From Gordonia pseudamarae (GTDB lineage Bacteria; Actinomycetota; Actinomycetes; Mycobacteriales; Mycobacteriaceae), in assembly GCF_025273675.1 (NCBI RefSeq), contig NZ_CP045809.1, positions 1,426,001 to 1,490,000 of the forward strand: 64,000 nucleotides of DNA, given 5' to 3'. Below, in pieces: positions 54,031 through 58,618 of the stretch (within the stretch, counting starts at the first letter, position 1; every line of letters starts with the position of its first letter). The notes beneath the pieces are model-generated. The model was not told where the DNA came from and searched no databases. It saw nothing but the letters and a program-made list of their open reading frames with translations. The position numbers and the translations under genes were made by a program.

Positions 54031-55212
54031 CTACCCCCGGTGCAGGGCGTCGGCGAAATGGTCCGCGACCAGGTCGATCTCCTCGTGGGTGATCACCAGC
54101 GGCGGTGCCAGCCGCAGCGTCGACCCATGGGTGTCCTTCGCCAGCACCCCGCGCGCGGCCAACCGTAGACAGAACTGTTTGCCGGTGCCCAGTGCCGGAT
54201 CGATGTCGATACCGGCCCACAGGCCCTTGCCGCGCACCGCGTACACCCCGTGCCCGATCAGCGCGTGCAGCCGGGAATGCAGGTGTTCGCCGAGATCGGC
54301 GGCCCGCGCCTGCCAGGTGCCGTCGGCGAGCATGCCGACCACGGTACGCCCCACAGCCGCTGCCAACGGATTGCCCCCGAACGTCGAACCGTGCGTACCC
54401 GGGGTGAGCACCCTGAGGACGTCGCTGTCGGCGACCACGGCGGACACCGGCAGTATCCCGCCGCCGAGGGCTTTGCCGAGGGTGAAGACGTCCGGGGCCA
54501 CGTCCCAGTGGTCGACGGCGAACGTCCTCCCGGTGCGCCCGAGTCCGGACTGGATCTCGTCGGCGATCAACAGCACGTTGTTGTCGGTGCACAGCGCCCG
54601 CAGCCGGGGCAGGTAGTCGTCGGGCGGCACGATGATCCCGGCCTCGCCCTGGATCGGTTCGACGAGCACCGCCACGGTGTCGGCGGTGACCGCTGCCGCG
54701 AGAGAGTCGATGTCGCCGAACGGTACCCGGTCGAATCCCGGTGTGTACGGGCCGAATCCGGCGCGTGCCGCGTCGTCGTCGCTGAAGCTGACAATGGTGG
54801 TGGTGCGGCCGTGGAAGTTGCCGCCGGCCACGATGATCCGCGCCCGCCCGTCCGGTACGCCCTTGACCTCGTATCCCCACTTACGCGCGACCTTGACCGC
54901 GGACTCGACGGCCTCGGCGCCGGTGTTCATCGGCAGCACCATGTCTTTACCGCACAGGTCGGCCAGTGCGGCGCAGAAGGGTTCGAGCTGATCGGACATG
55001 AAGGCGCGGCTGGTGAGGGTGACCCGGCCGAGCTGTGCGGTTGCCGCGGCGACGATCCGCGGATTGCGATGGCCGAAGTTCACGGCCGAGTAGGCGCCGA
55101 GGCAGTCGAGGTAGCGCCTGCCGTCGACATCGGTGATCCACACCCCCTCCGCGGTGGCGGCTGTCACCGGTAGAGGCGAGTAGTTGTGTGCCACATGGTG
55201 TTCCGTGCTCAT
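54031..55212 (-). CDS. rocD: Ornithine aminotransferase
   Basis: This 393-aa class III aminotransferase converts ornithine and 2-oxoglutarate to glutamate semialdehyde and glutamate. The PLP Lys is in DVFTLGKALGGGILPVSAVV. DCLGAYSAVNFGHRNPRI and LPMNTGAEAVESAVKVARKW are ornithine-aminotransferase segments. ATG 55212 is the family start (STEHHVAHNYSPLPV). In-frame extension upstream is not family-like. With arcA it points to arginine/ornithine catabolism, though the genes are far apart. Confidence 0.94.
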   Translation of the reverse strand: MSTEHHVAHNYSPLPVTAATAEGVWITDVDGRRYLDCLGAYSAVNFGHRNPRIVAAATAQLGRVTLTSRAFMSDQLEPFCAALADLCGKDMVLPMNTGAEAVESAVKVARKWGYEVKGVPDGRARIIVAGGNFHGRTTTIVSFSDDDAARAGFGPYTPGFDRVPFGDIDSLAAAVTADTVAVLVEPIQGEAGIIVPPDDYLPRLRALCTDNNVLLIADEIQSGLGRTGRTFAVDHWDVAPDVFTLGKALGGGILPVSAVVADSDVLRVLTPGTHGSTFGGNPLAAAVGRTVVGMLADGTWQARAADLGEHLHSRLHALIGHGVYAVRGKGLWAGIDIDPALGTGKQFCLRLAARGVLAKDTHGSTLRLAPPLVITHEEIDLVADHFADALHRG

Positions 55213-55432
55213 GTCAGTGATCCTTCGCCGCGCTGCGATCGGTCTGCCGGTATCGGCAATTCTAGGGCGCGGCACCTGATTCCGTCGCCGCGTCGCCGAC
55301 ATCGAACCCGGCGATGGTGAACCGGCCGCTTCGATCCCGGCGGCAGTGGATCCGGGGCCGTATCGGCGGTCCGCCGATCGCCGGCCGGGCCGTCCGTGAA
55401 GTCGCAATGGCCGCTGTGCTACCGTGGTCGAC

Positions 55433-55501
55433 GTGAATAGATCCGCGTGCGCGTATTGGCGCTTTATCGAGGCTCCGGGTGGGGCCACGGTGAAGCGCTG
55501 A
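55433..55501 (+). CDS. Leader peptide of aroF, 22 aa with Tyr-Trp-Arg-Phe
   Basis: The GTG at 55433 opens a 22-codon frame that reads NRSACAYWRFIEAPGG and ends at TGA 55499-55501. Tyr, Trp and Phe codons (55454-55465) occur within four codons. A -10-like TACCGT at 55420-55425 would place the transcript start at or next to the GTG, so the leader may be leaderless. A hairpin terminator follows at 55534-55560, and aroF starts 155 bp past the leader stop. This is the layout of a ribosome-mediated attenuator, as described for aroF (aroR) in Corynebacterium glutamicum. Confidence 0.7.
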   Translation: MNRSACAYWRFIEAPGGATVKR

Positions 55502-55533
55502 GCTGCGTTCGCACAACAAACCATCCGGAGCCC

Positions 55534-55570
55534 GAGCAGTGACCATCATGGTCGCTGCTCTTGTCGTTTC
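55534..55570 (+). terminator. Attenuator hairpin between the leader peptide and aroF
   Basis: GAGCAGTGACC (55534-55544) and GGTCGCTGCTC (55550-55560) pair over 11 bp with one G-U, loop ATCAT, then TTGTCGTTTC. An upstream alternative pairing, GGCTCCGG (55471-55478) with CCGGAGCC (55525-55532), joins the end of the leader frame to the base of this hairpin. Confidence 0.75.
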
Positions 55571-55656
55571 AGGGCACCGGAACACAACCAGGGACTGTGC
55601 CCCGGGACCGAGAGACAAAACCCCGACGACAGGCACAACCTGAAAGGCACATTGGC

Positions 55657-56748
55657 GTGACCACCACCACCGACGACCTCGCACTTTCCGTCAGCGCACC
55701 GTCGCAGTCCACCAGCGACCGCCGCATCAAGACCTTCCGGGCCATCCCGTCGCCCGACACCCTGCGCAACGAACTGCCACTCACCGCGCGCCGCGCACTG
55801 GCCGTGCAACGTGACCGCGACGAGATCGCCGCAATCCTCGCGGGTCACGACGACCGGCTGATCGTCGTCGTCGGGCCGTGTTCGGTGCACGACCCGGTCG
55901 CCGCCCTCGACTACGCCCGCCGGCTGGCACCGCTGGCCGCCGAATACGCAGACCGGCTCAAGATCGTGATGCGCGTGTACTTCGAGAAGCCGCGTACCAC
56001 CGTCGGGTGGAAGGGTCTGATCAACGACCCCGGCATGGACGAGACCTACGACGTCGAGCGGGGCCTGCGCACCGCGCGGTCGCTGCTGCTCGACATCATC
56101 GACCTGGGCCTGCCCGTGGGCACCGAGTTCCTGGAGCCGACCAGCCCGCAGTACATCGCCGACGCCGTGTCCTGGGGTGCGATCGGTGCCCGCACCACCG
56201 AATCCCAGGTGCACCGGCAGCTCGCCTCGGGTCTGTCGATGCCGATCGGGTTTAAGAACGGCACCGACGGCAACGTGCAGGTGGCGGTCGACGGGGTGAA
56301 CGCCGCCGCCGCACCGCACGTTTTCTTCGGCGTCGACGACTTCGGCCACGGTGCGGTGGTGGAGACCGTCGGCAACACCGACTGCCACATCATCCTGCGC
56401 GGCGGTACCCGCGGACCGAACTACGACGACGCGTCCGTCGCCGCTGCCGTGGCAAGCCTGGCCAAGGCGGGCGTGGCCCCCAAGGTGATGATCGACTGCT
56501 CGCACGCCAACTCCGGCAAGGACCACATTCGTCAGGCCGAGGTGGCCCGCGAGGTCGCTGCGGATGTGCGTGCCTCGCGCGCCGCCGGCGAGGAGCCGAC
56601 GATCAGCGGCGTCATGCTGGAGAGCTTCCTCATCCCCGGTGCGCAATCCACCGACGCCCGCCCGCTCACCTACGGCCAGTCGGTCACCGACAAATGCATG
56701 GGCTGGGACCCCACCGCCGACGTCCTTGCCGAGCTCGCCCGCAGCTGA
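55657..56748 (+). CDS. aroF: 3-deoxy-7-phosphoheptulonate synthase, class I (AroFGH type)
   Basis: This 363-aa DAHP synthase condenses phosphoenolpyruvate and erythrose 4-phosphate, the first step of aromatic amino acid synthesis. Class I marks are VVGPCSVHDPVAALDYARRL, RVYFEKPRTTVGWKGLINDP, GARTTESQVHRQLASGLSMP, MIDCSHANSGKDH and the end ITDKCMGW-like VTDKCMGWDPT. The GTG at 55657 opens TTTTDDLALSV. The family is usually feedback-inhibited by Tyr, Phe or Trp. A leader peptide with all three codons lies upstream, so expression is probably attenuated too. Confidence 0.95.
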   Translation: MTTTTDDLALSVSAPSQSTSDRRIKTFRAIPSPDTLRNELPLTARRALAVQRDRDEIAAILAGHDDRLIVVVGPCSVHDPVAALDYARRLAPLAAEYADRLKIVMRVYFEKPRTTVGWKGLINDPGMDETYDVERGLRTARSLLLDIIDLGLPVGTEFLEPTSPQYIADAVSWGAIGARTTESQVHRQLASGLSMPIGFKNGTDGNVQVAVDGVNAAAAPHVFFGVDDFGHGAVVETVGNTDCHIILRGGTRGPNYDDASVAAAVASLAKAGVAPKVMIDCSHANSGKDHIRQAEVAREVAADVRASRAAGEEPTISGVMLESFLIPGAQSTDARPLTYGQSVTDKCMGWDPTADVLAELARS

Positions 56749-56795: not shown

Positions 56796-56865
56796 GGTTG
56801 AGGCGTGAGCTCGTGCCTCAACCAGCGGGATGGGTGACGTGTGCTCGTGCCTCAATCAGCGGTGT
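56796..56865. repeat. Degenerate relative of the 2119-2270 repeat
   Basis: GCCGGTTGAGGCGTGAGCTC is followed by GTGCCTCAACCAGC and then by a further CGTGCCTCAATCAGC. The core GCCGGTTGAGG matches the repeat at 2119-2270. It lies between aroF and the XRE regulator. Confidence 0.6.
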
Positions 56866-56885: not shown

Positions 56886-56938
56886 TCTGCTCTGAGCAGA
56901 ACGGGGCGGCACGATCGGTGTGCGATGGCTACCATCGC
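56886..56938. promoter_or_regulatory. Two palindromes at the XRE regulator promoter
   Basis: TCTGCTCTGAGCAGA (56886-56900) is a perfect 15-bp palindrome. GCGATGG, CTA, CCATCGC (56922-56938) is a second inverted repeat with perfect 7-bp arms, ending 4 bp before ATG 56943. These are candidate autoregulatory operators. Confidence 0.55.
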
Positions 56939-56942
56939 GGGT

Positions 56943-57293
56943 ATGACCGGCAATGATACCTATCCCGAACCGCTGTGGCGTGAGGTGACCGGTCGCGTGT
57001 TGCGCCGGCACCGGCACGAGCGCGGCGAACGTCTCGTCGAGGCCTCGCGGCGTGCCGGTGTGTCCACCCAGTACCTGTCGGAGCTCGAACGCGGCCGCAA
57101 GGATGCGTCGTCGGAGGTGCTCGCGGCCGTTGCCGGGGCACTCGGTCTCACCCTCGTCGATCTGGTCCGCGAGGTGGCCGTCGAACTCGTGCGCCGAACG
57201 CGGCCGGTGCCGGTCCTGCGATCGGTGTCGAGTGCTCCCGTCGCCGTACCCGCCACACCGATCCGCCGGGGCCCCTACGCGCTGGCGGCCTGA
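56943..57293 (+). CDS. XRE-family regulator (ClgR/PopR-like)
   Basis: This ~116-aa protein has one helix-turn-helix domain: [20 protein letters not shown], then [20 protein letters not shown] and [20 protein letters not shown]. The [13 protein letters not shown] recognition helix is that of ClgR. ClgR and PopR activate clp protease genes in actinobacteria, and this gene converges on a clpP pair with 19 bp overlap of the ends. ATG 56943 is preferred; ATG 56925 is also in frame. The C-terminus is a short tail with no second domain. Confidence 0.88.
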
Positions 57294-57886
57294 CCCCGGG
57301 TTCGCGTATCGATGATCTGGTCGGCGATGCCGTAGTCGACGATCTCCTGGGCGCGCAGGATGCGGTCACGGTCGGTGTCTCGGCGCAGTGTGTCCACGTC
57401 TTGGCCGGTGTGCCGGCTCAGGGCCTGTTCGATCTCCTCGCGGGTGCGCAGGATCTCCTCGGCGGCCAGGATCAGGTCGGGGATGGTGCCACGGCCCTGC
57501 CCGGACGGCTGGTGCAGCAGGACACGGGCATGCGGGAGGACCGAGCGGCGCCCCGGGGTTCCCGCGGCCAGGAGCAGTGCCGTGGTCGAGAGTGCTTGTC
57601 CCACACAGGTGGTGGCGATTGGGGCATGGCAGTACTGCATGGTGTCGTACAGCGCGAACGTGGCCATCACCGAACCGCCGGGTGAGTTGATGTACAGGTC
57701 GATGGGTGCTTCGGGATTGTCCGAGTCCAGGTGCAGGATCTGCGCGATCAACGTGTTCGCGACCCCGTCGTCGATCTCGGTGCCCAGGTAGATGATCCGG
57801 TCGTCGAGCAGGCGGCTGTACACGTCCATCACCCGTTCGCCCTGCGGGGTGCGGCTGATGACATTGGGAATGGTGTAGGTACTCAT
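57275..57886 (-). CDS. clpP: ATP-dependent Clp protease proteolytic subunit (accessory copy)
   Basis: This 203-aa ClpP serine peptidase has INSPGGSV, the nucleophile in [19 protein letters not shown], the catalytic His in [11 protein letters not shown], and the Asp in [18 protein letters not shown]. The triad is complete. AxS surroundings (ALSTTA) differ from the usual AASM. It is translated from an ATG overlapping the stop of the upstream clpP. The absence of clpX and tig nearby suggests this is a second clpP pair, like clpP3-clpP4 of Streptomyces. Confidence 0.92.
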
Positions 57887-58497
57887 CGGGACACTCCGAA
57901 TCCTGATGCGGCGGGGGCATGGGGGCGGACCTGGGCGACACCGTCGACGATGTGGTCGATGAATCCGTAGTCAATGGATTCCTGCGCGGTGAACACATGG
58001 TCGCGCAGTGAGTCATCGAAAATCCGGTCCATCGGTTGACCGGTTCGGGCGGCGATCAAGCCCAGCACGGTGTCGCGGACATGCCGCAAATCGTCGGCCT
58101 GCAGTTCGATATCGGGAGCATAGCCGCCGATCCCGGCGGACCCTTGGTGCAGTAGCACTTTCGCGTGCGGGAGGGCGTATCGTTTGCCGGGAGTGCCGCA
58201 GCACAGCAGGAATTGTCCCGCGCTGTAGGCCATTCCGAGGTTCACCGTCGCCACGTCGTTGGGGATCACGTCCATGGTGTCTGCGATGGCCAGCATCGCG
58301 GGTACCGAGCCGCCCGGCGAATTGATCCATAGCGCGATGTCGGCGGTCGGGTCGTGTGCCGACAGCAACACCAGCTGCGCACACAGCTGGCTGCCGATCT
58401 CGTCGTCGAGGGCTGAATCGAGCATCAGAATCCGCTGGTTCAGCAGGCTTTCCGCTGTCGCCTTGCTCAGCGGCAGGTTTCGTTTCTCATCGCTCAT
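57883..58497 (-). CDS. clpP: ATP-dependent Clp protease proteolytic subunit (accessory copy, first of pair)
   Basis: This 204-aa ClpP has [20 protein letters not shown], nucleophile in [20 protein letters not shown], catalytic His in [17 protein letters not shown], and Asp in [17 protein letters not shown]. The full triad is present. [10 protein letters not shown] is taken as the start (58497); the frame is open to 58581. It overlaps the next clpP by 4 bases. Two different ClpP subunits made from one message favour a hetero-tetradecamer, as in other actinobacteria. Confidence 0.92.
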
Positions 58498-58539
58498 GCC
58501 CCGATGCTGCCGGTATGCGGGCCCGGCGACCACCGGGTG

Positions 58540-58572
58540 CCGCCCACAGCGGAACGGTGCCGCTGTGGGCGG
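58540..58572 (-). promoter_or_regulatory. Perfect 13-bp inverted repeat before the clpP pair
   Basis: CCGCCCACAGCGG and CCGCTGTGGGCGG flank a 7-nt loop. It stands 43 bp upstream of the first clpP and 47 bp past the stop of the PepSY gene. It may terminate the PepSY transcript, serve as an operator for clpP, or both. GCGGAACGGT is repeated directly on the right side of each arm. Confidence 0.6.
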
Positions 58573-58618
58573 AACGGTCACTCCGGAAGGCGGCCGTCGG
58601 CTATGTCGCGGCCGTCGG

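Follow-up and report, generated by a model that had tools for sequence, protein, structure and literature searches.

A putative ribosome-mediated attenuator with a Tyr-Trp-Arg-Phe leader ahead of aroF in Gordonia and other Actinomycetes

In Gordonia, the gene for the DAHP synthase AroF is preceded by a short reading frame with Tyr, Trp, Arg and Phe codons in a row, by two complementary elements that we name A and X, and by a terminator hairpin, T. This arrangement of leader and terminator before aroF is more than chance. We consider it quite probable that aroF is under a ribosome-mediated transcription attenuator that responds to how much charged Tyr-, Trp- and Phe-tRNA is available. As to how it would work, we tentatively propose antitermination without an antiterminator, in which the long-range A:X pairing, spanning some 50-60 nt, would dock a ribosome at the foot of T once it has stalled on any of the three aromatic codons, and the ribosome, not RNA competition, would block the hairpin. 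The kind of regulation is known from aroR of Corynebacterium glutamicum; new are the triple amino-acid leader, its spread and the missing overlapping antiterminator. The window is the whole 64,000-nt stretch of Gordonia pseudamarae DNA that was analysed, and the features are given below in its coordinates.

55420..55425, + strand: -10 box TACCGT (TANNNT), 7 nt ahead of the leader GTG; spacing conserved
55433..55501, + strand: leader ORF with a GTG start, 22 codons plus TGA; probably leaderless; kept in Gordonia relatives
55454..55465, + strand: control codons TAT TGG CGC TTT, lying ahead of element A by 17 nt (Tyr) and 8 nt (Phe)
55456..55469, + strand: 5' arm of the lower stem of hairpin H1; pairs with 55488-55501
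55471..55482, + strand: element A (GGCTCCGGGTGG); partner is X or A*
55481..55486, + strand: element A* (GGGGCC); pairs with 55471-55476 within H1
55488..55501, + strand: 3' arm of the H1 lower stem; the last leader codons and the stop
55521..55532, + strand: element X (CCATCCGGAGCC); pairs with A
55534..55560, + strand: terminator hairpin T, 11 bp plus loop; from the terminator scan and covariation
55561..55570, + strand: T-rich tail TTGTCGTTTC; from the terminator scan
55571..55580, + strand: A' (AGGGCACCGG); pairable with X or 55597-55602; role uncertain; conserved without covariation in relatives
55597..55602, + strand: S* (GTGCCC); pairable with A' or the ribosome-site region; by eye; role uncertain
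55642..55647, + strand: probable aroF ribosome site GAAAGG; by eye; GAAAGGCA/GGAAGGCA conserved in relatives
55657..56748, + strand: aroF, class I DAHP synthase; PF00793 profile match

Most of these parts had been proposed by a first-pass annotation of the sequence. The 22-codon GTG frame with its run of Tyr, Trp, Arg and Phe codons is present as described there, and the peptide read from it is VNRSACAYWRFIEAPGGATVKR. The 11-bp terminator hairpin with a T-rich tail, followed by a DAHP synthase gene, is also found where claimed: the hairpin is the only + strand terminator-like site within 55300-55700 (both strands together have three, against a shuffle mean of 0.3), its tail is interrupted in the window copy, and the aroF product matches PF00793 with an E-value of 6.4e-90 (301.2 bits, cut-off 25.5). 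The RNA fold of the leader-aroF region that the annotation had called for, run over 55420-55660, has a stability z of -3.94. A second pairing had been drawn between 55471-55478 and 55525-55532, joining the leader end to the terminator base. That pairing has no mismatch and can be lengthened to 12 bp (55471-55482 with 55521-55532), but its upstream segment lies mid-leader, in codons E-A-P-G, and the helix abuts the terminator stem without overlapping it; the ordinary antiterminator role that the pairing implied has to be dropped. An Rfam 15 scan of 54900-56000 gives four matches at E-values up to 1, all below their gathering scores and unrelated in kind. Beyond aroF, we noted by eye an inverted repeat GGTTGAGGC..GCCTCAACC with a repeated unit GCTCGTGCCTCAAYCAGCGG at window positions 56796-56861; at 56925-58581, judged by translations only, a small XRE-like ORF adjoins two opposite-strand ClpP-like ORFs.

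All 59 Gordonia genomes have AroF, and all 59 have upstream of it a short frame with a Tyr-Trp-Arg-Phe run, whose end lies 98-202 nt ahead of the position matching the window's aroF start. TAT and GCTC(C/T)GG are retained in every one of them, as is X (CCGGAGCC) followed by the hairpin, and the A:X helix ranges from 9 to 12 bp. Loss of the Tyr-Trp-Phe codons or of the hairpin in close relatives, which the first-pass annotation had named as evidence against the element, did not occur: the codons, A, X and the hairpin are kept in 59/59 congeners. True A:X partners outreach every one of 5000 reshuffled sets of partners (160, with 152 the highest among the reshuffled), with the caveat that this control does not remove relatedness. 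In one locus, L018, a single-base deletion truncates the peptide to APGGA and leaves the RNA design in place.

Wider counts come from a set of 165 loci (the YWRF set) out of 194 input regions, selected by TAY-TGG, GGCTC(C/T)GG and CCGG(A/G)GCC. Because the set is chosen by core patterns, the A and X cores and the Tyr-Trp codons are present in it by selection. Gordonia contributes 63 of the 165, some genomes are counted twice, and four Gordonia loci (L137, L175, L196 and L210), which have an additional Phe codon, had been left out by an earlier filter. Alignment A2 consists of 53 sequences from the 165 that are less than 90% alike. Alignment A3 covers mycobacterium- and Williamsia-like sequences, with Gordonia absent, and keeps 29 of 36 selected (dropped were L088, L115, L162, L171, L172, L203 and L208).

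In 165/165 loci of the YWRF set, an in-frame start is preceded at 6-8 nt by a TANNNT box, the distance being exactly 7 nt in 150 of them; the starts are GTG in 140 cases and ATG in 25. Out-of-frame control searches find the box in only 4/330. Such a spacing is that of a leaderless mRNA, with the -10 box 6-8 nt before the start and the 5' end on the start codon, and it supports the earlier suggestion, made from TACCGT, that the leader message begins at the GTG itself; the transcript is predicted to start there and to be translated at once. The rare codons TAT and TTT are each retained in 164/165 loci, against a background usage in window ORFs of 21% for TAT and 13% for TTT (in the 34 long window ORFs, TAT accounts for 46/215 Tyr codons, and GCT for 144/1830 Ala codons). 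Judged by its codons, it is plausible that the leader senses all three end products, Tyr, Trp and Phe.

In A2, both T and H1 carry compensatory changes. For A:X plus T, 95.2% of the cells are paired and 70 are double-changed, where shuffles have a mean of 18.7 and 0/500 are as high; 10 of the 11 T pairs covary. In the A:X helix, two edge pairs covary. The core is almost without variation, in part because of how the loci were selected, so covariation says little on A:X. A compensated change in the A:X core is found outside A2, as GGTTCCGG/CCGGGACC in L293 versus GGCTCCGG/CCGGAGCC in L288. For H1 plus T, the alignment has 89.8% paired cells and 94 double-changed ones (shuffle mean 29.6, 0/500 as high). 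The codons near the stop vary by genus (ATG AAG CGC, GAT ACA GCG, GAT AAA GCG) while their complementarity to the Arg-Phe-Ile codons is retained. The H1 lower stem has z below -2 in 117/165 loci and is weak, with z above -1, in Dietzia, Lolliginicoccus, Streptomyces, Mangrovactinospora and Isoptericola; pairing at the H1 base is weak as well (mean z -1.12 over loci, -0.69 over groups).

In 154/165 YWRF loci the final aromatic codon is Phe, placed 8 nt before A; in the remaining 11, from Dietzia and its kin, an additional Trp stands at -2, along with Phe at -8. Leaders outside the set have the last Phe at -5 to -8 from the helix start, except that L110 has two Tyr codons instead, and in L111 element A is in a different frame at nearly the same distance. 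T follows X by 0-2 nt in 149/165 loci and by 3-7 nt in 15, the stem not being found in one; the distance from A to X runs from 43 to 61 nt. The geometry scan, like the complementarity test against T below, uses shuffles that keep base composition only. Conservation is mainly at the RNA level. Peptide conservation as the main force is ruled out by the L111 frame, the L018 deletion and the changing tails.

We propose that when aromatics are ample, the ribosome would pass through the leader, whose RNA would fold into H1 and hold A there; T would then form, and transcription would stop short of aroF. If Tyr, Trp or Phe is short, the ribosome would stall on TAT, TGG or TTT, and its front (estimated from a standard footprint) would come to lie no more than about 5 nt from where A begins. 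H1 would be blocked, A would pair with X, and RNA polymerase would read through into aroF. The docking proposal adds that A:X would park the stalled ribosome at the foot of T, where it would block the hairpin sterically. A ribosome that has reached the stop codon would occupy the loop that separates A from X, at a distance from T, and H1 could refold after its release. The sequences show the parts with their conservation and covariation; the direction of regulation and the way in which A:X stops T are what we infer. Docking is proposed because A:X does not overlap T, and because one placement remains constant: the front of the stalled ribosome comes up to where A begins, and the end of X lies at the foot of T.

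Folding with a masked ribosome footprint in the 59 congeners favours A:X in 59/59 with the ribosome on the Tyr, Trp or Arg codon, in 20/59 on Phe, and in 58/59 at the stop. Without a ribosome, A:X forms in 23 and A is locally paired in 33. Thus A:X, favoured also at the stop codon and, in those 23 congeners, without a ribosome, is not specific to starvation. T forms in every ribosome state at equilibrium, so equilibrium folding alone does not switch T off.

Set beside a trp-type attenuator, the region has leader codons for the end products of the pathway, read from the sequence in all 59 congeners with AroF downstream, and a predicted intrinsic terminator, the T-tailed and covarying hairpin, between leader and first gene. 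An antiterminator overlapping the terminator stem was not found: A:X abuts T, with an overlap of 1-2 nt solely in two loci of family f18. Nor do upstream segments have conserved complementarity to the T 5' arm (mean z 0.00, 0.04 and -0.11), so the textbook overlapping antiterminator is missing. Against the T 3' arm the z is -0.53, with 10/30 groups below -1, which we count as weak. A pairing of TGGCGCT with the T 5' arm, present in single folds of L001, is unsupported across groups.

The nearest alternative to docking is the ilvBNC scheme of C. glutamicum with minimal overlap, a three-hairpin attenuator in which H1 would be the anti-antiterminator, and A:X an antiterminator whose competition with T is limited to a few bases in the lowest pairs of the hairpin. 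As described in the available parts of PMC11857589, ilvBNC has the identical order of anti-antiterminator, antiterminator and terminator, a short leader peptide, and an overlap of merely the boundary GCC shared by antiterminator and terminator, and in f18 A:X extends as far as T, or 1-2 nt into it (L290, L292). Unlike ilvBNC, the stems here abut and the amino acids differ; the 149/165 loci with T 0-2 nt after the X core have it there without overlap, and the lack of conserved upstream pairing with the T 5' arm just given also speaks against competition. We take this scheme to be a serious possibility that falls somewhat short of probable. Translational control of aroF is possible too, with A', S* and the ribosome site in alternative pairs that would hide or open the aroF site. 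Complementarity among A', S* and GGCAC at the ribosome site is retained in the 29 sequences of A3 (92.6% and 91.4% paired cells; 87.0% for X:A'), but none of the three pairings has covariation above shuffles in A3, one X:A' position never pairs, and T is a well-formed terminator with covariation. That control is mainly translational is therefore unlikely.

A different reading places the signal in the nascent peptide, whose APG part would arrest the ribosome in the manner of RAPG and RAPP, which are arrest peptides. APGG or close variants do follow the aromatic run in most leaders, including those of the second class described below (there with the Ala codon GCC); the peptide of L111, however, reads EWGSGR with A in another frame, Gordonia has the variants APVE, ALGE and APGE, L109 has APVG, and tails differ while the RNA complementarity stays. 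We find peptide arrest very improbable. The logic could also be reversed, with A:X promoting T, for example by stacking, since A:X is favoured with stalled and stopped ribosomes alike and T adjoins it. Such a device would turn aroF off in starvation, the opposite of what is reported for C. glutamicum aroR, which raises aroF under Phe limitation in the part of PMC11802643 available, and it seems to us improbable. The docking proposal itself we regard as possible rather than probable; if it is true, its signature would be that the Phe-A distance (8 nt) and the X-T distance (0-2 nt) stay fixed over many genera of actinobacteria amid changing tail, linker and codon order.

The aroR-aroF attenuator of C. 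glutamicum was reportedly described by Neshat and colleagues in 2014. The portions of PMC11802643 and PMC4046766 at hand give aroR a Phe-Tyr-Phe leader and a Phe response. The Gordonia element is like aroR in having a short aromatic-codon leader before aroF, together with ribosome stalling and attenuation, both proposed in our case; it is unlike aroR in its Tyr-Trp-Arg-Phe run, and the two are likened by description, not by sequence. With the trp attenuators of Corynebacterium and Streptomyces, as presented in the accessible text of Seliverstov et al. 2005 (PMC1262725), it shares a leader with end-product codons, alternative hairpins and a GC-rich terminator, whereas there conserved complementary triples join antiterminator to terminator. 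The same text reports no conserved structures before phenylalanine or tyrosine operons in the Actinobacteria studied. According to the excerpted PMC4824070, ribosome-repressed intrinsic terminators of E. coli are prevented from terminating by a ribosome a few bases before them, and where translated sequence ends a few bases ahead of the terminator, repression is nearly complete; there the ribosome is near in the linear RNA, whereas here it would be brought by A:X. The open-access literature surveyed, as far as its available text goes, describes no aroF leader in Gordonia, mycobacteria or Streptomyces. Eight leaders are reported for S. lividans (PMC8079986) and three for C. diphtheriae (PMC5784534), none of them for aroF in the parts of these papers available.

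Across the family, AroF is matched in 250/301 genomes and 26/31 genera. Of 60 upstream regions outside Gordonia, 40 have the A/X design, 18 a second class of leader, and in two (L116, L124) none was found. The leader motifs among the 40 include YWRF, YRWRF, RFYF and others; L109-L112 have aromatic leaders with A and X cores (RFYF in L109, L111 and L112), and L111 was assigned to the 40 by eye, the script having missed it. The second leader class (L117-L135 except L124, 18 loci) stands before a more distant AroF and reads YFWF..PAPGG and variants. Its hairpin is GAGCCGG..CCGGCTC, without a T tail, which is perhaps a different mode of control.

A three-core pattern run over named genomes matches at least 119 stretches, 80 of which were examined. 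Among these listed matches, AroF lies 78-195 nt after the leader stop in 75/80, and in L138, L185 and L205 the sequence ends within about 400 nt after the leader. The listed matches come from Gordonia, Mycobacterium, Mycolicibacterium, Williamsia, Tsukamurella, Dietzia, Tomitella, Hoyosella, Lolliginicoccus, Jongsikchunia, Glycomyces, Luteimicrobium, Isoptericola, Phytoactinopolyspora, Streptomyces and Mangrovactinospora. A match in Paraburkholderia (L214), with neither such a leader nor AroF, is a chance one. A Mycolicibacterium houstonense contig (L171) has two leader copies about 1 kb apart, at 1315-1385 and 2341-2411, the second nearer AroF; they are identical over the 260 bases compared, by duplication or assembly artefact. 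L153, labelled Acidobacteriaceae, has a leader resembling that of Tsukamurella and an AroF with 73% identity to the one in the window, and is probably a misassigned contig.

An RNA model was trained on A2, and thus matches A2 sequences by construction. It finds one copy in the window genome, at an E-value of 8.6e-27 with that copy in the training set; the next match, at 0.93, is without a leader. Over the class, it has matches in 40/296 genomes and 12/114 genera, distributed as 11 in the window's own family, 19 in f21, 8 in f18, and one each in f46 and f38. No leader was seen at the f38 match or at the second match in genome G446, and the weak matches L256, L295 and L296, without a leader, were discarded. 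The f21 leaders are YRYF, WYWRF, WYRRF and similar, with AroF in 11/11 of the f21 loci listed. The f18 leaders (L286-L293) have the same A/X/T design with RYSSF, SFAF and similar runs, and the AroF query finds nothing downstream in 8/8. Two f18 downstream genes were scanned: L286 is above cut-off for both DAHP synthase I and chorismate mutase II, and L289, a cut piece, is above it for DAHP synthase I and below it for chorismate mutase II. A Trp codon is absent from all eight f18 leaders, which fits a downstream enzyme committed to Phe and Tyr; yet the YRYF leaders of f21 also lack Trp and stand before a plain AroF, so the rule is not general. Taken on sequence evidence, the element is real and widespread in Actinomycetes.

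The element poses the question of how a stalled ribosome can prevent termination without an RNA segment that competes with the terminator. It may also have a use, as a handle in strains producing aromatic compounds. If our reading is true, the one described case, aroR, would grow into a family whose members share an RNA design and a recognisable rule of spacing, and a single leader would monitor, at the first enzyme of a branched pathway, each of its three products, from Gordonia and the mycobacteria to Streptomyces.
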